DNA of 64,000 nucleotides from Massilia mucilaginosa. GTDB taxonomy: Bacteria; Pseudomonadota; Gammaproteobacteria; Burkholderiales; Burkholderiaceae_D. Below are positions 19,252 through 62,235 of this stretch, piece by piece. The position numbers were made by a program, and so were the translations under genes. Positions within the stretch are counted from its first letter, which is position 1. Each line of letters begins with the position of its first letter. The stretch lies in contig NZ_WHJH01000035.1 in the NCBI RefSeq assembly GCF_011682145.1, positions 1-64,000 of the forward strand, written 5' to 3'. The notes under the pieces were generated by a model. It was given only the letters and a program-made list of their open reading frames with translations. It had not been told where the DNA came from and did no database searches.

Positions 19252-19318
19252 CTTACACGTTGTTACATTCATGATAAGACATGAAACTTTTTTGTCATTG
19301 ACTCTGTCATACATGTAC
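19252..19318. promoter_or_regulatory. Candidate activator half-sites upstream of the kinase gene
   Basis: CTTACACGT (19252-19260) is identical to a 9-base arm found at 23778-23786 in front of the FHA activator gene, and ACATGTAC (19311-19318) matches the other arm type. They lie 5-70 bases upstream of a sigma-54-like promoter. Two matches are weak evidence alone, but the shared 9-mer links both regions. Confidence 0.4.
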
Positions 19319-19322
19319 ACTA

Positions 19323-19338
19323 CGGAAATGTTTTTGCA
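19323..19338 (+). promoter_or_regulatory. Sigma-54-like promoter of the kinase operon
   Basis: CGGAAA-N5-TTGCA has GG at -24 and GC at -12 with the exact 12-base GG-to-GC spacing of sigma-54 promoters. The -12 half is perfect, while the -24 half (CGGAAA against TGGCAC) is weak. Transcription would start near 19348-19350, leaving a very short leader that contains GGAG before TTG 19362. Confidence 0.45.
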
Positions 19339-19361
19339 ACTGACATAACGTGGAGCGCAAT

Positions 19362-21515
19362 TTGCAGGATGAAGAGCAGGGGACGGGCCATTATCAGGTG
19401 AAGCGACTGTTGGGCGAGGGCGGCTTCGGGCAAGTGTACGAAGCCTGGGACTCCAGGCTCCAGCGTATTATCGCCATCAAGCGGCTGAAACCGCAACTGC
19501 TTTCCTCGCGACCAGACAATCTGCTCGACGAGGCGCGTCTCGCCGCGTCCCTGCGCCATCCCGGCTTCGTGCGCATCTTCTCGATCGAGGGCGACGCCGC
19601 CCAGCAATCGATCATCATGGAATTCGTCGACGGCTGCACCTTGCGCGAAGCCGGCAAGCGCGGCCCCATGCCCGAAGCGCAGGTGCTCGACATCGTCGCG
19701 CAAGTGGCGGACGCCATGTGCGAAGCCCACGCCGCCAAACTGATCCACGGCGACATCAAGCCGGCCAACCTGATGCTCGAACCCGGCGGCCAGGTGCGCA
19801 TCATGGATTTCGGCCTGGCGCGCAAGATCGACCCGCAGGCCACCGAATCGGTGGTGTTCGACCAGACCGAAGGCACCATCGCCTACCTGGCGCCGGAACT
19901 GATGATGGGCTCGACCCTGAGCCCGCAGAGCGATGTGTACGCGCTCGGCGTGGTGATGTACGAACTGCTCAGCGGCACCCGCCCGTTTTCGCACCTGAGC
20001 GGGCTGGCGCTGGCGGCCGCGCATATCCAGTCGTCTTCGAACCTGTGGCCGTTCGCGCCCGACACCAGCCCGGGCGTGACCGCCCTGGTACGTGCCATGA
20101 CGGCGCGCCAGCCCGAGGACCGGCTCGCTTCGATGGAGGCGGTGCGCGAGGCGGTGCGCAGCCTGCGCGCCGGCACGGGCGCGCCGGCGCTGACGCCGGC
20201 CGCCGCCGCTAGCGAAAAAGGGCCGTCTGGCAAGAAGAAGGCGGCGCTCGCCATCGGCATCGGTACGCTGGTCGTGGCGCTCGGCGGTTTGCTTGCGAGC
20301 GGGCACCTGGGCCAATGGTACACGCATAACGATCCGTTCTTTTCCGAAGCCGCCGCGATGGAAAGCGGTTTGACGGCACTCAAGACCTTCGAGCGGCGCG
20401 AACGGCTGGATGTGGCGATCCGCACTTTCAGCCATATTCTCGAGCGTAATCCGAAACATGCCGCCGCTGCCGCGGGTTTGTCGTTCGCTTACTGCTTCAA
20501 GCAAACCAGCGAACGACGCGACGATACCTGGCTCAAGCGCGCAGACGCCAGTGCCCAACTTGCCATCAGTCTGAACGATCAGCTGGCGCTCGGCTACGCC
20601 GCTCAGTCGACGGTGCGGGCCAGCCAGCGGCGGGCGCCCGAAGCCCTGATGCTGGCCGATCAGGCGTTACGGCTCGACCCGCTCAACTGGTTTGGCCTGG
20701 TTGCCAAGACCAATGCGCTGACCCGCCTGCGCCGCTTTGCCGAAGCCGAGCAACTCTTGCTGCAGGCAATCAAGCGCTATTCTGGCGATCACGTTTTCTA
20801 CGATTTGCTCGGCACCCTGTATTTCGATCAGGGCCGACTCAAGCCAGCGGAGCAGGCGTTCCGGCACAGTATCAAACTCGAACCCGACAGTGTCAGTGCG
20901 TATTCCAACCTGAGCCTGGTCCTGCAGCGCCAGAATCGCCTGGATGAGAGTCTGCAAGTTTTGCAGCAAGGTTTGCAAGTGCGAGCGACGGGTCCGCTAT
21001 ATACCAATCTCGGCAACGCGCTGTTCACCCGCGGCGACTATGTCGGCGCGGCCGAGGCCTTCGAGCGCGCCGTTTCCCCGCCCTTCGGCAATAATTACGA
21101 TTACCTGCACTGGGCCAACCTGGGTGATACCTTGCGTTGGATTCCTGGCCGCGAGGACGATGCGCGCAAGGCGTACCAGCAAGCTCTGGGCATGCTCAAG
21201 CCGATCCTGGCCAGCGCGCCGGGCGAGCCCACCCTGCAGTCGCGCATGGGACTGTACAGGGCCCGCCTGGGTGAGCGCGCGGGCGCCATCGAGCATACCC
21301 GGCGTGCCATCGAGATATTGCCGGATGACCCGAACGTGCATTTTCGGGCAGCGATGGCCTACGAACTTCTGGGCGAACGTGACCTTGCGCTGAGCGAATT
21401 GACCCACGCGCGCGCAAAGGGATATCCCAACCACTTGATTAGCGCCGAACCCGACCTGATCGAGTTGCGGCGTGACCCGCGGTACTTTTACTCCACCACT
21501 GAAAGTGACAAATGA
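19362..21515 (+). CDS. Ser/Thr protein kinase with transmembrane helix and C-terminal TPR repeats
   Basis: 717 residues. Kinase domain: glycine loop VKRLLGEGGFGQVYEAWD, ATP lysine in IIAIKRLKPQ, catalytic loop LIHGDIKPANLML (H-G-D in place of H-R-D), metal motif MDFGLARKI, and LAPELMMG with the subdomain VIII Glu. A Lys-rich stop and a single membrane helix follow (KKKAALAIGIGTLVVALGGL, about residues 290-312). The rest is TPR-like helices (LGTLYFDQGRLKPAEQAFRH, YTNLGNALFTRGDYVGAAEA). TTG 19362 is chosen because GGAG lies 6 bases upstream; GTG 19350 is the alternative. The stop overlaps the next gene by 4 bases. It probably signals to the FHA activator nearby. Confidence 0.9.
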   Translation: MQDEEQGTGHYQVKRLLGEGGFGQVYEAWDSRLQRIIAIKRLKPQLLSSRPDNLLDEARLAASLRHPGFVRIFSIEGDAAQQSIIMEFVDGCTLREAGKRGPMPEAQVLDIVAQVADAMCEAHAAKLIHGDIKPANLMLEPGGQVRIMDFGLARKIDPQATESVVFDQTEGTIAYLAPELMMGSTLSPQSDVYALGVVMYELLSGTRPFSHLSGLALAAAHIQSSSNLWPFAPDTSPGVTALVRAMTARQPEDRLASMEAVREAVRSLRAGTGAPALTPAAAASEKGPSGKKKAALAIGIGTLVVALGGLLASGHLGQWYTHNDPFFSEAAAMESGLTALKTFERRERLDVAIRTFSHILERNPKHAAAAAGLSFAYCFKQTSERRDDTWLKRADASAQLAISLNDQLALGYAAQSTVRASQRRAPEALMLADQALRLDPLNWFGLVAKTNALTRLRRFAEAEQLLLQAIKRYSGDHVFYDLLGTLYFDQGRLKPAEQAFRHSIKLEPDSVSAYSNLSLVLQRQNRLDESLQVLQQGLQVRATGPLYTNLGNALFTRGDYVGAAEAFERAVSPPFGNNYDYLHWANLGDTLRWIPGREDDARKAYQQALGMLKPILASAPGEPTLQSRMGLYRARLGERAGAIEHTRRAIEILPDDPNVHFRAAMAYELLGERDLALSELTHARAKGYPNHLISAEPDLIELRRDPRYFYSTTESDK

Positions 21516-22141
21516 AAAAACCGACCTCGATGCTCCTGGAAGCAAATTTCGACATTAACCAGATCGGAGAAACGCTGGAATGGTCGTTCAGCCGCAAAGA
21601 TGGCGATGGCAATCCGGTCAAGGGGAGGTATGCGGGGGCGATCTACTTTACGGTCGGCGAGAAGATGAAGGTGCGGGTGCGGGCGGGCGGCTATGAAGCG
21701 TTCGAATCGTTCAAGGTCCTCGACTGCTGCCTGATCACCCGTCCCCAGATCATTGCCATCGCGCCGGGTGGGCTGGCAAGCTACGCGGTTCCCTCGCCAT
21801 TTGCCGGCGTTGTGGGCGCCTCTGCCGAGATTCCCGCGGACGAATTCGTGCCTGGCCGCAGCGCCGATACCGAGGAAGACGGTCGCAGGTACCACACCAA
21901 AGTGCAGAAATGGGAGAATTTCCTGACGGTGGCCGAAGCGACCGGTCGCTGGGAAATCTCGTTTGCCCTGACCGTGGAAATCACGCGCAGTTCGGGTAAC
22001 GTGGAGCGCCGCGTCTTCGTGTTCGATCCGGAAGGCCAGGTCGGCGCCGGCATCATTCCGCCGATGATGATGGATTCCGACGATAGCGTCGCCTGCCAGC
22101 TCGCGCCGGAAAGCGACATCGCCGGCCGCTTGCCGACCTGA
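21512..22141 (+). CDS. Hypothetical protein coupled to the TPR kinase
   Basis: 209 residues, unrecognised. It has no signal peptide or membrane helix, so it is predicted to be cytoplasmic. Predicted strand-rich stretches include FDINQIGETLEWSFSRKDGD, YAGAIYFTVGEKMKVRVRAG, FLTVAEATGRWEISFALTVE and RRVFVFDPEGQVGAGI. Its ATG overlaps the kinase stop (ATGA), so the two are translated together and the product is likely a kinase partner or substrate. It ends 5 bases from the stop of the convergent FHA activator gene, with no terminator seen between them. Confidence 0.75.
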   Translation: MKKPTSMLLEANFDINQIGETLEWSFSRKDGDGNPVKGRYAGAIYFTVGEKMKVRVRAGGYEAFESFKVLDCCLITRPQIIAIAPGGLASYAVPSPFAGVVGASAEIPADEFVPGRSADTEEDGRRYHTKVQKWENFLTVAEATGRWEISFALTVEITRSSGNVERRVFVFDPEGQVGAGIIPPMMMDSDDSVACQLAPESDIAGRLPT

Positions 22142-22146
22142 GTTTC

Positions 22147-23694
22147 CTAGGCGGCGTCCAGCCCCAGCACCCGCAAATGGCGGCGCAGCGCTTCGCTCGG
22201 CGTTTTCAGGCGCGAGGCGCAACGCGCCAGGTCGCCGCCGTGGGCACTCAGGGCCGCGTCGAGTTCCTCGCGCGGGATCAGCGCCGCCGGGCGGATCGCC
22301 GGATGCGCTTCGATCAGCTTGTACAGCGAGGGCCGTGACAAGCCCAGCTGCTGGGCCGCGCCGCTGATCTGCCAGCCATGTTCTTCCAGCGCGCCGAGCA
22401 GGTCGTCGTTGCTGACCTCGGCCAGCTTGCGGCGCGGCGCGCCCTCCATCGGCGCTTTCTGGCTGGCGCTGCGCGGCTGTTCAGCCGACATGGCGACCAT
22501 GGCGCTGACCGGGCGCGCCGTTGCCGGCGCATGCACGTACTGCGACAGCACCGGCCGCTCGCCCGCCTGCAAAGCCATCACCATCCTGCGCGCCACATTG
22601 GCCAGCTGGCGGATATTGCCCGGCCAGTCGTAATTGCACATCTCGGAGACCAGCGCCGGCGGAAACGCCGCCAGCTCGGCACTATTCAACGCGCAACCCT
22701 TGAGCATGTGCAGCAGCAGCACGCCGATATCCTCGCGCCGCTCGCGCAGGGTCGGCACCCGGATCACGAACGCCTCCATGCGGCGCAGCAAGGGCTGGTT
22801 GAAGCCGCGCGCATCCAGGTCCTGGTCGGTGGCGGCGATCAGGCGCGCCGTGGTGCGCGCATCGGCGCTGGCGCCGAGCGGGCGGTAGCAGCCCGTTTCC
22901 AGCACCCGCAGCAGCATCGGCTGCACCGAGGCCGGCGTGTCGCCCAATTCATCGAGAAACAAGGTGCCGCCATCGGCTTCGGCAAACAAGCCCTGGCGCG
23001 GCGCCTGCGCGCCCGTGTACGCGCCCTTGGCCGCGCCGAACAGGTCGGCCGCGGCCAGCGACTCGCTCAGGGTCGCCATGTTCACGGCCACCAGCGGATT
23101 GGCGCTGCGCTTGCTGGCCTGGTGGATGGCGCGCGCCGCCACATCCTTGCCGGTGCCGGTCTCTCCCAGCAGCAGCACGGCCAGGTCGGTGCCCGCCACC
23201 TGGCGGATCAGCTCGCGCGTGGCGATGGCGCCGCTGCTCACGCCCAGCAGGCTCGGGAACAGGTTGGGGCGCGGGAAACTCGTCATCCAGTGCAGGCACA
23301 GCAGCACATGGCCGCCCAGCCCCAGCACCACGCCGCCCTTGACTTCTTCGCGGGTAAAGCGGCGCGTGCCGCTCAGCACGGCGCCATTGACTTCGAGCGC
23401 CATGCGGCTGTCGGGTGCGGCCAGCTCCACGCTGTCATCGCCGAGCCTGCGCACCATCAGCGGCGCGCGCGCGATCGCCCGGTGGCCGAGCGCGATGCCG
23501 TCCTGGCCGGGGCGGAAGAACAGCGGCGTGTAACGGCACACCTCGATCGCGCCTTCCTCGGCCGGGCCGATGAACTGCTCGCCGATGCGCTCCGTTTCCG
23601 GATGCCACAGAATGGTCAGGCCCAGCAAGGCACTCGTGATGCCGTTCTTTTGCGAGAAAAGCTGGGTCGTCAGCGTGTTATCAACATCATTCAC
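22147..23694 (-). CDS. Sigma-54-dependent transcriptional activator with N-terminal FHA domain
   Basis: 515 residues. The N-terminal region (about 60-140) resembles an FHA phosphothreonine-binding domain rather than a receiver. The AAA+ domain has Walker A LLGETGTGKDVAARAIH, the sigma-54 contact loop GAYTGA (about 225; usual form GAFTGA), Walker B GGTLFLDELGD and sensor DWPGNIRQLANVARRM. The C-terminus has Fis-type helix-turn-helix sequence (WQISGAAQQLGLSRPSLYKL), then a second similar motif (DLARCASRLKTPSEALRRHL). An FHA-type activator beside a Ser/Thr kinase suggests control by Thr phosphorylation. The gene is divergent from a sigma-54 promoter and its palindromic sites overlap its own promoter, so autoregulation is likely. 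Confidence 0.92.
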   Translation of the reverse strand: MNDVDNTLTTQLFSQKNGITSALLGLTILWHPETERIGEQFIGPAEEGAIEVCRYTPLFFRPGQDGIALGHRAIARAPLMVRRLGDDSVELAAPDSRMALEVNGAVLSGTRRFTREEVKGGVVLGLGGHVLLCLHWMTSFPRPNLFPSLLGVSSGAIATRELIRQVAGTDLAVLLLGETGTGKDVAARAIHQASKRSANPLVAVNMATLSESLAAADLFGAAKGAYTGAQAPRQGLFAEADGGTLFLDELGDTPASVQPMLLRVLETGCYRPLGASADARTTARLIAATDQDLDARGFNQPLLRRMEAFVIRVPTLRERREDIGVLLLHMLKGCALNSAELAAFPPALVSEMCNYDWPGNIRQLANVARRMVMALQAGERPVLSQYVHAPATARPVSAMVAMSAEQPRSASQKAPMEGAPRRKLAEVSNDDLLGALEEHGWQISGAAQQLGLSRPSLYKLIEAHPAIRPAALIPREELDAALSAHGGDLARCASRLKTPSEALRRHLRVLGLDAA

Positions 23695-23731
23695 CGGGTA
23701 GGCTCCATGGCACGGCGTTTAGTAAATGCCA

Positions 23732-23759
23732 ATTATAGAGCAAGGGCGACAATTGTTGA
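23732..23759 (-). promoter_or_regulatory. Sigma-70-type promoter of the FHA activator gene
   Basis: On the minus strand TCAACA (plus 23754-23759) and a perfect TATAAT (plus 23732-23737) are separated by 16 bases, 38 bases before the start codon. The -35 box adjoins the first activator-like arm (ACATGTAAAG begins at 23759), so a bound activator could block or modulate its own gene. Confidence 0.55.
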
Positions 23760-23889
23760 CATGTAAAGAGCGGTCCGCTTACACGTGTTTTACACGTCGC
23801 CTGTCAATGCCGCGCCGGCCGCTGCGCGTCCGCGTTCCGTTCGACATGTAAATGGGCCCGCATTTACATGCTCATTTACATCATTTACC
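23759..23889. promoter_or_regulatory. Palindromic upstream activator sites between the FHA activator gene and its likely target
   Basis: Two inverted repeats share the same arm. ACATGTAAAG-N9-CTTACACGT spans 23759-23786, with an extra TTTACACGT at 23789-23797. ACATGTAAAT-N8-ATTTACATG spans 23844-23870, with further ATTTACA and ATTTACC arms up to 23889. The arms read ACRTGTAAR. They lie about 45-175 bases upstream of the -24 box at 23934, the usual place for sigma-54 enhancer sites. The binding protein is inferred to be the adjacent activator. Confidence 0.65.
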
Positions 23890-23933
23890 GGAAAACAAGC
23901 GCGGTTTGCTGTCTATTTCGGCACTTATCAGCA

Positions 23934-23949
23934 TGGCACGCTAGTTGCT
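23934..23949 (+). promoter_or_regulatory. Near-consensus sigma-54 promoter
   Basis: TGGCAC-gctag-TTGCT fits the -24/-12 consensus TGGCAC-N5-TTGC(A/T) at every defined base. Transcription would start near 23959-23961, giving a leader of about 50 bases before ATG 24012. This is the strongest promoter-type signal in the window. Confidence 0.85.
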
Positions 23950-24011
23950 AAGTATCTATCGCGGCCTTGTTGGGCAGCAAGTAGCTAATGCTTTTGAGAG
24001 AGTTGGGAACC

Positions 24012-24836
24012 ATGGGTATCGTGATCGAAAGTTATGCATTCGTTGGAGTGGCAACCCGGGCAACCGGGCCGACGGCACAGGTATGGCTGCCGCCCGGCTT
24101 CACGCTCACCGGCGGCGGCGCCTACGACATGGGCCGCGGCACCTCGAACACGCTGACCGCCTGCTACCCGACCCGCAACCAGTCCGGCGTCTACACCGGC
24201 TGGGCCGCGGCGGGACGCGACTTCGGCCTGGCCGACCCGGTGCCGCTGGCGGTGTACGCGGTCGGCATCCGCATCACCCGCGACGGCGAGCCGGTCCGGA
24301 TCGAACAGCAGGTGTTTTCGGCCACCAGCGCGCTGGTGTCGGACCCGGGCGTGAGCGTCAAGCTCGGCGCCGGCTGGATCGGCACCGGCGGCGGCGCCCA
24401 GGATAACTACGCCACCCCCGTCAACGGCAATATGCTCACCGCCAGCTACCCGCTGATCGGCGCCGATGGCAATATCTGCGGCTGGAGCGCTTCCGGGCGC
24501 GAGCACGACGCCGTCGACCAGGCCCGCGTGACCGCCTTCGTGATCGGCATCCGCACCGGGCCCGACGTGGCGCTCGAAGCGCGCATCGTCTCGAACACCA
24601 GCCTGCTGACCGGCTACCCGAGCGCGCTGGTGGCCGTCCCTCATGGCAACGCCGTGGTGGCCGGCGGCGGCGCCCTGGTCGGCGAGAGCGGGCGCGGCAC
24701 CATGCTCAGTGCCTCGTGCCCGATCATCAGCAGCCAGGACGGCCGCCTGACCGGCTGGTTCGCCGCCCGCAAGGTGCAAAAATCGGCCCCGCCGAGTGGC
24801 ATTACCGCGTATGGAGTCTTGCTTGAAGCTGCGTGA
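24012..24836 (+). CDS. Protein of three internal beta-type repeats, predicted sigma-54 target
   Basis: 274 residues made of three copies of a roughly 85-90-residue unit. The aligned cores are TLTGGGAYDM..LTACYP..YTGWAAAGRD..AVYAVGIRI, then WIGTGGGAQD..LTASYP..CGWSASGRE..TAFVIGIRT, and VVAGGGALVG..LSASCP..TGWFAARKV..TAYGVLLEA. Each unit is Gly-Gly-Gly-Ala, then a Ser/Cys-Tyr/Cys-Pro turn, a Gly-Trp, and a Tyr/Phe-containing strand. Similar GGG..SYP..GW..AY patterns occur in secreted proteins of other bacteria (from memory), but no signal peptide is seen here. ATG 24012 is preferred over ATG 23988 because GGGA lies 5-6 bases upstream. The function is unknown. Confidence 0.8.
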   Translation: MGIVIESYAFVGVATRATGPTAQVWLPPGFTLTGGGAYDMGRGTSNTLTACYPTRNQSGVYTGWAAAGRDFGLADPVPLAVYAVGIRITRDGEPVRIEQQVFSATSALVSDPGVSVKLGAGWIGTGGGAQDNYATPVNGNMLTASYPLIGADGNICGWSASGREHDAVDQARVTAFVIGIRTGPDVALEARIVSNTSLLTGYPSALVAVPHGNAVVAGGGALVGESGRGTMLSASCPIISSQDGRLTGWFAARKVQKSAPPSGITAYGVLLEAA

Positions 24837-25005
24837 CTGGATCCTGGTGCTGATGGCCGTGCTGGCGCTGGCGGCCGACCTGCCCGAGCGCGCACTCATG
24901 GCCAGCAAGCAGCCGTCGACCACCCTGACAACCGAGGCCGCGCCAGCGCAGCAGGCCCGGGCACCATATAACCTCGATCGAACGAGGGATACCGCCGGAC
25001 GATAG
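24823..25005 (+). CDS. Small secreted or anchored protein in the sigma-54 operon
   Basis: 60 residues from TTG 24823, preceded by GGAG at 6-base spacing. The frame overlaps the end of the triple-repeat gene by 14 bases. The product would start MKLRDWILVLMAVLALAADL, a basic residue pair followed by a hydrophobic core, as in a signal peptide or membrane anchor. A hydrophilic Thr/Ala/Gln-rich tail ends RTRDTAGR. An ATG at 24811 in the same frame lacks a ribosome site. It sits between the triple-repeat gene and a strong terminator, so it would be the last gene of that transcript. It is too short to be sure it is expressed. Confidence 0.5.
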   Translation: MKLRDWILVLMAVLALAADLPERALMASKQPSTTLTTEAAPAQQARAPYNLDRTRDTAGR

Positions 25006-25054
25006 GCGGATGGCGTTCCACCGCGCCCGCCGCCACCCATGTCGTCTTCTTTTA

Positions 25055-25080
25055 CGCGCACCGAGGTGCGCGTTTTTTTT
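25055..25080 (+). terminator. Rho-independent terminator closing the sigma-54 operon
   Basis: A perfect 7-base stem, CGCGCAC-cgag-GTGCGCG, is followed by eight T residues. It lies 50 bases after the small ORF stop and before the GNAT gene, so the sigma-54 transcript ends here. Confidence 0.9.
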
Positions 25081-25811: not shown

Positions 25812-26681
25812 ATGAACAAATTCGCCGTAGGCGTGGTGATCGCGGCCACGCTGGCGTCACCGCTGCTGGCCCAGGCACAGGTGCGCGCTGACGCCAGTCT
25901 GAGCAATTTCTCGTACAGCCTGGTTGATTTGTTGCCCGACGATGGCATCGTGCCCTCGCTCACCATTGTCGTGCCCGCGGATTATGCCGGCGCCTCCCAG
26001 ATTTCCGCCTACCTCAGGCAGTATGGCGACACGGTCCCATCGCTGGACGACAAACGTACCCAATCTACCACCCGCTATAACCGCGACATCAATGCGCGTC
26101 TCGACACGGCTGCCGGCAAGTCAGGCGCCAGCGTGACCGGTACTGATTTCGCTTCACTGCAATTTCGCACCACGGTCTCGACCACCAGCTCCGTTGCCGG
26201 AACCCGGCAGACGTATGCGTCCGCCAGTGCCAACATTGTCGAGTTCGTGCTCTCGCCGGGCACCCAGGTCTCGTTCTTCGCCGACTTCAACGGCAGCGCG
26301 TCCGCGGCGAAGCCGGCAAGCAGTCTGTTTCGGGAAGATGCGCAAATCGATGGTTCTTTTTCTTTAGTCGGCTATGTGCAGGACCAGGTGATCGGCGGGG
26401 ACTCGAAAACGATCAGGGTGAGAGCGGCGAACGGTTATTACGACGCAAGTCCTCCTCCCATTGCGTCGAGCAGTGAGCGTTTTTCGCTGACGTTCGATAA
26501 CAACTCGGCGTTGTCATCGAATCTGAACTTGAAGTTCTCCTTGACCTCGTCCGCGGACAGTCAGTACTACAGCATGCTGCCACTGCCGGTACCCGAGCCG
26601 GCCACCACGGCCATGCTGCTTGCCGGACTGGGCCTGGTCGCGGGCGCAGCGCGCCGCCGCCGCAAGGTCCAGGGTAACTAA
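25812..26681 (+). CDS. PEP-CTERM secreted protein A
   Basis: 289 residues. The signal peptide MNKFAVGVVIAATLASPLLA is followed by a mature region without known enzymatic motifs. The protein ends with the PEP-CTERM tripartite signal: VPEPATTAMLLAGLGLVAGA, then the Arg cluster ARRRRK. In Gram-negative bacteria this tail is cut by an exosortase (XrtA/EpsH) and the protein is exported, often with exopolysaccharide. No exosortase gene is in the window. It is paralogous to the next gene; both share LTNFSYSLVDLLPxDGIxPSL-type sequence near the start. Confidence 0.9.
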   Translation: MNKFAVGVVIAATLASPLLAQAQVRADASLSNFSYSLVDLLPDDGIVPSLTIVVPADYAGASQISAYLRQYGDTVPSLDDKRTQSTTRYNRDINARLDTAAGKSGASVTGTDFASLQFRTTVSTTSSVAGTRQTYASASANIVEFVLSPGTQVSFFADFNGSASAAKPASSLFREDAQIDGSFSLVGYVQDQVIGGDSKTIRVRAANGYYDASPPPIASSSERFSLTFDNNSALSSNLNLKFSLTSSADSQYYSMLPLPVPEPATTAMLLAGLGLVAGAARRRRKVQGN

Positions 26682-26705: not shown

Positions 26706-27563
26706 ATGAAGACAATCGTTACCACGCTGGTACTGGGCGCAACGCTCGCCGTGCCGCTGTCGGCCAGCGCGCAAGTGAGCGCGCAAGGCACCTTGACCAA
26801 TTTTTCTTACTCGCTGGTGGACTTGCTGCCGAACGACGGCATCGCGCCATCGCTGTCGATCGTCAAGCCGCTGAATCCCGCGCAGCTGGGCATCCGCGCC
26901 ATCGGGGATATCAGCGAAACCGGCTTGCGCCAGAACCGCGAGAGCAGCGAAGACAATTCGCACTTGCTGTACAGCCGCGATCTCGACGCAGGCATATCCC
27001 TCGCGCAGGGCACCGCGGTTTCGACCGTCAGCGGCACCAATTTCCAGACCCTGGCCTTGAGTACGGCCGCGTCGACCAAAAACGGCGCCGGCTACGAGCG
27101 CAGGGTGGTCGCGTCGAATTACGTGATGATCGAAGAATTCGTCCTTTCGCCAGGTACTGAGGTCAGGTTCTTTGCCGACGTGCGTGGCAGCGTGGCGAAA
27201 GCACTGCCAAGCACCAATACCCTGAAAGAGAGTTCGGAACTCTCGGCCTCGATGAGCTTCCCTGAATTCAGCGCCAACGGCTACCCGGATTTCGTTTCGG
27301 AGTTCAGCATGCGAGCGCCGTCCTGGAGCGCCGATCCGAACGCGCCGTACTCGGAGTCGGCCAGCGAGCGCTTGTCGATCATGTTCCAGAACACGGCGAA
27401 AACGTCGTGGAAGCTGAAGGTGGAGCTCACCTTGTGGTCGGAAGCGAACTCGCTCGATACCTCGCCGGTGGCCAGTCCGGTGCCGGAGCCGGCGACGTAC
27501 GGCATGCTCCTCGCCGGCCTGGCGCTGGTGGCGGGTGTCGCGCGCCGCAAGCGGCCTGCCTGA
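26706..27563 (+). CDS. PEP-CTERM secreted protein B (paralogue of A)
   Basis: 285 residues. The signal peptide MKTIVTTLVLGATLAVPLSA is followed by VSAQGTLTNFSYSLVDLLPN, close to the same region of protein A, then a shared EEFVLSPGTEVRFFADVRGS segment. The sorting tail is VPEPATYGMLLAGLALVAGV followed by ARRKRP. The 24-base gap to protein A and their similar length and layout show tandem duplication and probably one transcript. A terminator follows directly. Confidence 0.9.
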   Translation: MKTIVTTLVLGATLAVPLSASAQVSAQGTLTNFSYSLVDLLPNDGIAPSLSIVKPLNPAQLGIRAIGDISETGLRQNRESSEDNSHLLYSRDLDAGISLAQGTAVSTVSGTNFQTLALSTAASTKNGAGYERRVVASNYVMIEEFVLSPGTEVRFFADVRGSVAKALPSTNTLKESSELSASMSFPEFSANGYPDFVSEFSMRAPSWSADPNAPYSESASERLSIMFQNTAKTSWKLKVELTLWSEANSLDTSPVASPVPEPATYGMLLAGLALVAGVARRKRPA

Positions 27564-61513: not shown

Positions 61514-62235
61514 GGCGCATGCCCCTGGAGCGCGCCGTTATGCAGATACAGGCGCCGCGTGGCCTGGCGCGCGAGCGACTCGTTGTGCGTGACCAGCACC
61601 ACCGCGCGCCGGTGCGCGTGGGCGAAGGTGTGGAGCAGTTCGAATATCTGCTGTCCGGCCTGTTCTCCCAGGCTGCCGGTGGGTTCGTCGCACAGCAGAA
61701 GCGAGGGCGCCCCGACGATGGCGCGCGCAATGGCCACCCGTTGCTGCTCGCCGCCGGACAGGGTGGCGGGCATGGCCGCGCGCTTCGACTCCAGGCCCAT
61801 CAGCGCCAGCGCCGCCTGCGCCTGGCACCGCCTTTGCTGGCGCGGCATGCGCCGCAGCTTGAGGGGCAGTTCGACATTTTCCTGGGCATCGAGGAAGGGC
61901 ACCAGGTTGAAGCGTTGAAAGACGAAGCCGATGCTGCGCGCGCGCAGTTGCGCCAGCTGGCGCCGATTGCGAAAGTCGACTATTTCGCCGCCGCAGCGCA
62001 GGGTGCCGGCGTCCGGTGTTTCCAGCGTGCCGAGGATCTTGAGCAGCGTGCTCTTGCCGGCGCCCGAGGGGGCCGTAATGGCCAGCACTTCGCCCAGGCC
62101 GACGCTGACCTGCACGGCGCCCAGGACGGTCTCCCTGCCGGCGGCGGACTGGAACGACTTGCAGATGCCGTGCGCCTGCATGAACGGCTGGGCGGCCTGC
62201 GCGTCTTGGGAAGTGTCGATGGTGGAGTCGCTCAT
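61510..62235 (-). CDS. ABC transporter ATP-binding protein (MacB/LolD type)
   Basis: 241 residues from ATG 62235. Walker A ITAPSGAGKSTLLKILGTLE, Q-loop FVFQRFNLVPFLD, signature LSGGEQQRVAIARAI and Walker B LLLCDEPTGSL with the His switch VLVTHNES. This belongs to the MacB/LolD/FtsE branch, which does not import but extrudes or extracts. Both ends overlap neighbours by 4 bases (ATGA). Confidence 0.93.
   Translation of the reverse strand: MSDSTIDTSQDAQAAQPFMQAHGICKSFQSAAGRETVLGAVQVSVGLGEVLAITAPSGAGKSTLLKILGTLETPDAGTLRCGGEIVDFRNRRQLAQLRARSIGFVFQRFNLVPFLDAQENVELPLKLRRMPRQQRRCQAQAALALMGLESKRAAMPATLSGGEQQRVAIARAIVGAPSLLLCDEPTGSLGEQAGQQIFELLHTFAHAHRRAVVLVTHNESLARQATRRLYLHNGALQGHAP

Follow-up and report, generated by a model that had tools for sequence, protein, structure and literature searches.

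The 64,000-nucleotide stretch of DNA analysed here (hereafter the window) corresponds to positions 1-64,000 of contig NZ_WHJH01000035.1 from the 7.7-Mb genome of Massilia mucilaginosa (GCF_011682145.1; G000 in our genome set). Between ~19.2 and 25.1 kb it carries a compact regulatory locus, composed of a Ser/Thr kinase gene coupled to the gene of a small partner protein (hereafter hyp) on the forward strand, a convergent gene on the reverse strand encoding a sigma-54 activator of the enhancer-binding protein (EBP) type and, divergent from the latter, the gene of a repeat protein (rep) followed by a 64-amino-acid open reading frame (ORF) and a terminator. The first-pass annotation of this DNA had described a kinase with a coupled hypothetical gene, an activator with an FHA-like domain, arm sites and a sigma-54 promoter, and this anatomy proved to be real, exceeding chance for the promoter and the arms. 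Taken together, our results suggest that the locus is probably a self-contained cassette, in which the kinase and hyp switch the FHA-type activator onto a single output operon.

The kinase gene (19350..21515, + strand) encodes a Hanks-type Ser/Thr kinase, as indicated by its Pfam Pkinase match (1.2e-50) and by the presence of the catalytic motifs HGDIKPAN and DFG, with a single hydrophobic, membrane-segment-like hydropathy peak at residues 298-316 followed by TPR repeats. Its start may be the TTG at 19362 rather than the GTG at 19350, because two related genomes (G094 and G151) have lost the GTG and kept the GGAG and the TTG. The ATG of hyp (21512..22141, + strand; 209 amino acids) overlaps the kinase stop codon, and the alignment of its family, from which the copy of locus L090 was left out owing to a stop codon, displays an FDPExxVG motif near the end of the protein. 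Neither a Pfam family above the cut-off nor a PDB match was obtained for hyp, and a likeness to PixA/AidA-type proteins gained no support.

The activator gene (22147..23694, - strand) encodes a protein with Sigma54_activat (9.6e-49), lid and Fis-type helix-turn-helix (HTH_8, 2.1e-9) Pfam domains, and with the GAYTGA loop, GETGTGKD and LFLDE motifs that together identify a bacterial EBP; the genome also encodes rpoN (single Sigma54_AID match, E 2.3e-16). The FHA-like domain that had been proposed in front of these modules escapes Pfam (PF00498/FHA was unmatched in 12 EBP members, even at E<=10), yet an FHA fold is predicted for residues 22-138 (23281..23631, - strand), the fold prediction being the clearest support for it. 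The AlphaFold model built on 33 aligned rows reached a predicted local distance difference test score (pLDDT) of 86.7 and a predicted template modelling score of 0.80, and its best Foldseek matches were FHA domains (1uht, 5.5e-5; 3gqs, 1.4e-4). Structural alignment with VIA-align gave Z scores of 13.3 to the ArnA FHA domain (2.4 Å, 106 residues), 13.2 to 3gqs (1.8 Å, 97 residues), 13.2 to DgcB (2.0 Å, 101 residues), 12.3 to GarA and 12.2 to OdhI. At the profile level, the domain matched 3gqs in the PDB (E 0.0013), and its hhalign comparison with five FHA domains of its own genome was weak (probability 12.8%, E 0.0022). In canonical FHA domains, phospho-threonine is bound by the Arg of a GR motif, the Ser and His of SxxH and the Asn of NG(T); two arginines of the activator domain, Arg54 and Arg76, matched by eye, are invariant in the alignment of 33 EBPs.

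This domain is preceded by a tail (residues 1-19) modelled with pLDDT <50 and taken as disordered, which carries a T-x-T motif. Thr7 is invariant in the EBP alignment. The codon of Thr9, the candidate phospho-acceptor, lies at 23668..23670 (- strand), and this position is Thr in all EBPs whose fetched locus includes a kinase (37/37) and Ala in 7/7 paralogues linked to kdp genes; Thr is also found in L088 and L091, two loci with no kinase within 10 kb, and L059, which has Ser and a kinase ~8.4 kb away, was excluded from both groups. Position +3 from Thr9 is usually Leu. By analogy with the tail threonine of DgcB, we tentatively propose Thr9 as a phospho-switch. The Kdp-linked paralogues (G000:C66:97855-99264, i.e. 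L056, together with L058, L060 and L062-L065) immediately follow kdpABCDE-like genes, which were identified by eye in L056; they lack the GAFTGA loop and have Lys in place of the Walker B Glu, and are perhaps former activators that have taken on another role connected with potassium transport.

The gap between the EBP and rep genes is densely occupied by putative regulatory sites. A sigma-70-like EBP promoter (TCAACA-16-TATAAT; 23732..23759, - strand), supported by scan and gap alignment, is overlapped in its -35 element by the operator TTGACATGTAAA (23756..23767), which recurs in related loci, and TTKACATGTMAA has a single match in the whole 7.7-Mb genome, at 23756-23767. Farther towards rep lie tandem TTACACGT half-sites (23778..23797), supported by the gap alignment and the arm-site count, and the dyad ACATGTAAA-N10-TTTACA (23844..23868), the only match of its own genome to ACATGTAAA-N8-14-TTTACA; the latter pattern gave 11 matches in 8/17 genus genomes, all at the rep promoter, against one for the reversed pattern. 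ACRTGTAAR arm sites, as reported previously, occur five times for 0.37 expected, a count reached by 0/100 shuffles. Their conservation, singled out beforehand as a point on which the proposal hung, was observed in seven of the 10 gap-aligned genomes, with one pair present in G094 and G151 and part of the sites in G152. The near-perfect sigma-54 promoter TGGCACGCTAGTTGCT (23934..23949, + strand) was equally confirmed, with 0.11 matches expected in the window and TGGCA and GTTGC invariant in 10/10 genomes. The other match to TGGCACGCTAGTTGCT in the window (61823-61838) falls on the opposite strand inside an ABC-transporter-ATPase-like gene and is probably due to chance. An FHA-type EBP with a conserved operator and a sigma-54 promoter facing a divergent operon thus fits, as far as sequence goes, the earlier claim that the activator drives its own output. 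As for a wider regulon, no further exact operator or dyad was found in the genome, the search covering exact matches and weaker sites being possible.

Within the output operon, rep (24012..24836, + strand) encodes a 274-amino-acid protein of three ~92-residue repeats (z 13.7, 8.3 and 9.7 over shuffles), for which no Pfam family above the cut-off was obtained and no signal peptide was seen by eye; its AlphaFold model (9 rows, pLDDT 38.2) was too poor for a structure search. Its distribution is narrow, with 4/145 genomes of the wider family sample, all of them within the genus, and, outside it, a partial match on a Streptomyces plasmid (29% identity over 54%). Downstream, a terminator consisting of a stem with a T run (25054..25073, + strand) upholds the operon as first described, but its small second ORF (24811..25005, + strand; 64 codons with a hydrophobic N-terminus) turned out to be the remnant of a CxxCH protein of 412-416 amino acids. 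The protein is full-length in G145, G148, G153 and G111 and a remnant in G000, G146 and G138. Its CISCH motif and N-terminal hydrophobic segment were seen in L083 (G148) and L084 (G111), and the 414-amino-acid ORFs of G145 and G153 share its start; the ORF was not seen in G152 and G094, G151 standing outside this comparison. Compared with L083:7646-8884, three of seven close genomes have a gene shortened to 64 codons, in which both ends are retained. Because this second gene is full-length, a remnant or unseen depending on the genome, rep appears so far to be the constant part of the output.

The elements of the locus are inherited together. Rep was detected in 10/17 genus genomes (E<=0.001), EBP in the same 10 (E<=1e-100) and the kinase in nine of them (E<=1e-120), and, with the same cut-offs, none of the three was matched in the remaining 7/17. 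In G151, both the kinase and the cassette EBP are frameshifted and in pieces, its EBP match being a paralogue. The co-occurrence that the first-pass annotation had put forward as a check was therefore found for the kinase, the EBP and the triple-repeat protein, with broken copies in G151. The gene order kinase-hyp-EBP-rep is common to nine fetched relatives, the L053 kinase having been recovered in its C-terminal part only by tblastn and whole by a separate search. Beyond these close relatives, scanning genome contigs with the EBP N-terminal domain revealed 36 loci in Massilia, Duganella, Undibacterium, Telluria, Rugamonas, Janthinobacterium and metagenome-assembled genomes, and a similar kinase lies within 10 kb in 30/36 of them. 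Two other families of the order contribute three more genomes in which kinase, hyp and EBP occur together (L120-L122). The reach of the EBP family is at least 6/399 genomes in an order sample and at least 1/398, the own genome, in a phylum sample (with up to 10 candidates scored per genome in both). The partner hyp was found in 14/145 genomes of the wider family sample, spanning three genera.

Related loci appear to share the same DNA code. The 350 bases upstream of EBP were scanned in 32 loci (the 36 minus four Kdp-linked ones), which are related and do not represent independent trials. The operator (<=1 mismatch) was present in 22/32 segments (shuffles: mean 0.05, maximum 1), which together contained 100 half-sites (shuffles: 9.7, maximum 18), and a sigma-54 site of 7-8/8 faced the output in 17/32 (shuffles: mean 0.09, maximum 2), with one in the opposite direction; ten segments had no operator and 15 no sigma-54 site of at least 7/8. 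Among the 23 non-focal loci whose loop is intact, the operator was found in 16 and accompanied by a good sigma-54 site in 12, ten of which fall into a single group with similar outputs.

Loci with a broken GAFTGA loop offer a natural comparison. The loop reads GAYPGA in L093 and L118 and GALPGV in L119, and carries a deletion in L109. Across the eight loop-broken loci (L093, L109, L118 and L119 and the Kdp-linked L095, L099, L104 and L115), neither the operator nor a sigma-54 site of at least 7/8 was detected (0/8 for each), against 22/30 and 17/30, respectively, in loop-intact loci; a sigma-54 site of 5/8 lies upstream in L093 and L118. This apparent joint loss of loop and promoter favours the view that sigma-54 activation is the job of the module.

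The gene facing the activator varies among loci, as judged from output genes called by reading frame and third-codon-position GC content, uncurated, with putative activator control taken from position. Where an operator and a good sigma-54 site coexist, this gene is rep in the focal clade and encodes an ATPase-like protein in ten Massilia/Telluria loci (AAA_16 being just under the cut-off in L107), a small protein accompanied by haem-oxygenase-like and radical-SAM proteins in Rugamonas L113, and a 208-amino-acid protein without family name in L106. An operator without a sigma-54 site accompanies a DUF1842 protein in Undibacterium L088, and a sigma-54 site without an operator, located farther out, a flavin-adenine-dinucleotide enzyme in L098.

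From these elements we propose a mechanism that draws on sequence for co-inheritance, operator uniqueness and promoter conservation and on prediction for the FHA fold, and in which we infer phosphorylation, docking, DNA binding, sigma-54 dependence, autoregulation, membrane topology and the signal. The kinase would be anchored by its one membrane segment, its TPR repeats probably lying outside the cytoplasm and serving as a sensor, and would act together with the co-encoded hyp on the convergently transcribed activator. The most likely route would be phosphorylation of the disordered activator tail at Thr9, after which the phosphorylated tail could dock on its own or a neighbour's FHA domain, through Arg54 and Arg76, allowing the AAA+ ring to assemble. 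Positioned at its private operator (TTKACATGTMAA and the nearby half-sites), the activator would then open the sigma-54 promoter at 23934 and switch on a single output operon, consisting of rep plus, in some relatives, the CxxCH protein. Because the operator covers the -35 of the EBP's own sigma-70-like promoter, its occupancy would probably also let the activator limit its own synthesis. We regard the anatomy with its dedicated sigma-54 output as very likely correct and control of the activator by the kinase, in some way, as likely; that the kinase acts by threonine phosphorylation of the activator itself is plausible and slightly favoured, and that Thr9 in particular is the residue concerned we hold somewhat less likely than not. 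The broader proposition, a phospho-threonine, one-to-one cassette in which the kinase, the partner, the FHA-tail-switched activator and a single private operator move together and outputs are exchanged between lineages, is held with less than even confidence.

Several observations weigh against this scheme, chiefly the unusual FHA pocket and the g6 genomes described below. The predicted FHA pocket is non-canonical, with an invariant Met98 at the usual Asn position and no SxxH His (matched by eye), and position 75 is Ala in the focal clade and Ser in many other members. Among the 30 loop-intact loci, eight have no recognisable operator and 13 no sigma-54 site of 7/8. Owing to shared ancestry, the eight broken loops represent fewer than eight events, the four Kdp-linked ones maybe one or few; likewise, the Kdp-linked paralogues seem to form a single clade, making the loss of Thr9 one event or few. 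Lastly, L088 and L091 combine activator and operator with no kinase within 10 kb, and, conversely, 7/7 sampled genomes of genus g6 encode kinase and hyp with no EBP of the activator family found; the kinase-hyp pair must have another target there (L066-L070), since this activator was not found.

Transcription of the kinase operon itself seems to follow another logic than first supposed. The first-pass annotation had the activator driving the kinase operon through sigma-54, from a weak promoter CGGAAATGTTTTTGC; this site exists in only 3/9 aligned genomes, and the conserved block contains instead a sigma-70-like promoter found by scan (TTGTCA-18-TACACT; 19292..19321, + strand), whose TTGTCA part is lost in G094 and G151, so that the kinase promoter looks to be of the sigma-70 type. 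In the 25 of 30 kinase loci scanned upstream of the kinase (L086, L090, L098, L110 and L113, with cut or fragmentary kinases, being left out), a sigma-54 site of at least 7/8 was found in 0/25 and one of 5-6/8 in two. Of the 9-mer CTTACACGT shared by the kinase and output regions, the two copies (19252 and 23778) do stand out, 1/100 shuffles reaching two, but the kinase copy is kept in only 3/9 genomes. Still, the activator might also bind and regulate the region between the kinase and up150, for instance as a repressor, closing a loop that needs no sigma-54 promoter; this extension, compatible with the proposed cassette, strikes us as rather unlikely. It agrees with a TTACA-N5-TTACA half-site pair kept between kinase and up150 in 9/9 aligned genomes (19253..19267) and with the operators that precede the kinase gene in L089 and L111; against it, the focal clade has this pair and not the full operator, and only 2/25 kinase upstream regions carry one.

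A competing explanation, which we judge less probable still, is that the kinase works through hyp, which, phosphorylated or released, would bind the FHA domain as a ligand and gate the activator. The missing canonical phospho-threonine residues fit such a route, as does the coupling of hyp to the kinase in the seven g6 genomes with no activator found. A long hyp is present in 14/36 EBP loci (within-locus scan), and 12/18 kinase-EBP loci without it (16 of the 30 kinase-bearing loci plus L118 and L119) have a short ORF of 123-172 amino acids whose PDPExxVG ending resembles that of hyp and for which Pfam gave no family above the cut-off. However, neither kind of hyp was recognised in the other 6/18, and the retention of Thr9 in every kinase-linked EBP is unneeded by this model.

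That the EBP is an ordinary orphan sigma-54 activator, the kinase being a mere neighbour signalling elsewhere, appears quite improbable. The activators of L088 and L091, with operator intact and kinase absent from 10 kb around, and the kinase-hyp pair of g6 would agree with it, but a kinase accompanies the EBP in 30/36 loci, and the pair recurs with different outputs in the two other families of the order. A role in defence was rejected, as PADLOC matches were confined to the kinase part (best 25 of 34) or the AAA+/HTH part of the EBP (4), with none for hyp and rep, which matched no phage families either.

An open-access literature search covering titles and abstract starts found no published description of the kinase-hyp-EBP module; FHA-type sigma-54 activators and kinase-FHA pairs are already known, and it is the dedicated kinase-partner-activator-operator arrangement that was not found described. 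FHA-domain enhancer-binding proteins that act with sigma-54 have reportedly been described in Myxococcus xanthus, going by the title of a 2005 article by Jelsbak, Givskov and Kaiser, and the likeness drawn here follows that title. The present system would differ by the dedicated kinase and partner gene adjoining the activator, by its one private operator and by an FHA domain too divergent for Pfam. With NtrC/NorR-type activators, the EBP shares the AAA+ and HTH_8 domains, enhancer-like sites and a -24/-12 promoter; unlike them, it matched no receiver or GAF domain and has a predicted FHA fold instead. A parallel to the proposed switch is offered by DgcB of Bdellovibrio, in which a tail Thr, followed by Ser at +1 and by a hydrophobic residue at +3, docks on the protein's own FHA domain, two arginines, R61 and R76, lying near and holding the phosphate (PMC6733907). 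The activator has two invariant arginines at apparently matching places and, like DgcB, OdhI and GarA, carries a conserved Thr in a tail located in front of its FHA domain; the output of these proteins is a GGDEF enzyme or the control of other proteins, not transcription (PMC6733907), and compared with them the pocket described here has no Asn and, in the focal clade, no Ser. The type VI secretion systems PpkA-PppA-Fha and VtsR likewise associate a Ser/Thr kinase with an FHA protein or have a kinase phosphorylating a regulator (PMC10482370, PMC9993120), whereas here activator and FHA domain belong to one protein and secretion genes are absent from the neighbours seen at the locus.

If true, the proposed kinase-activator cassette would be a Ser/Thr counterpart of two-component systems, its AAA+ activator being driven by a switch made of a tail Thr and an FHA domain. 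It is often difficult to tell which transcriptional targets a bacterial Ser/Thr kinase has. In the present case, sequence suffices to name the kinase and the activator as well as the DNA site and the promoter targeted, and natural variants (broken GAFTGA loops and the Thr9-to-Ala change) provide built-in controls, so that a full path from Ser/Thr kinase to promoter becomes directly testable. The module also points to its changing outputs, several of which have no known family match.

Among these outputs, L113:7589-9930 and L059:5708-7985 each combine a small protein of ~120 amino acids with a radical-SAM protein, and in L113 also a haem-oxygenase-like protein, operons that could represent a peptide-modifying pathway. 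The small proteins facing the activator in L120:9097-9432, L121:7105-7590 and L122:6987-7475, which resemble one another by eye (a Pfam scan of two of them gave no family above the cut-off), are likely another output type. Downstream of the locus, the window contains two tandem ORFs (25812-26681 and 26706-27563), a Pfam scan of the first showing a PEP-CTERM sorting signal and the second having a similar end.

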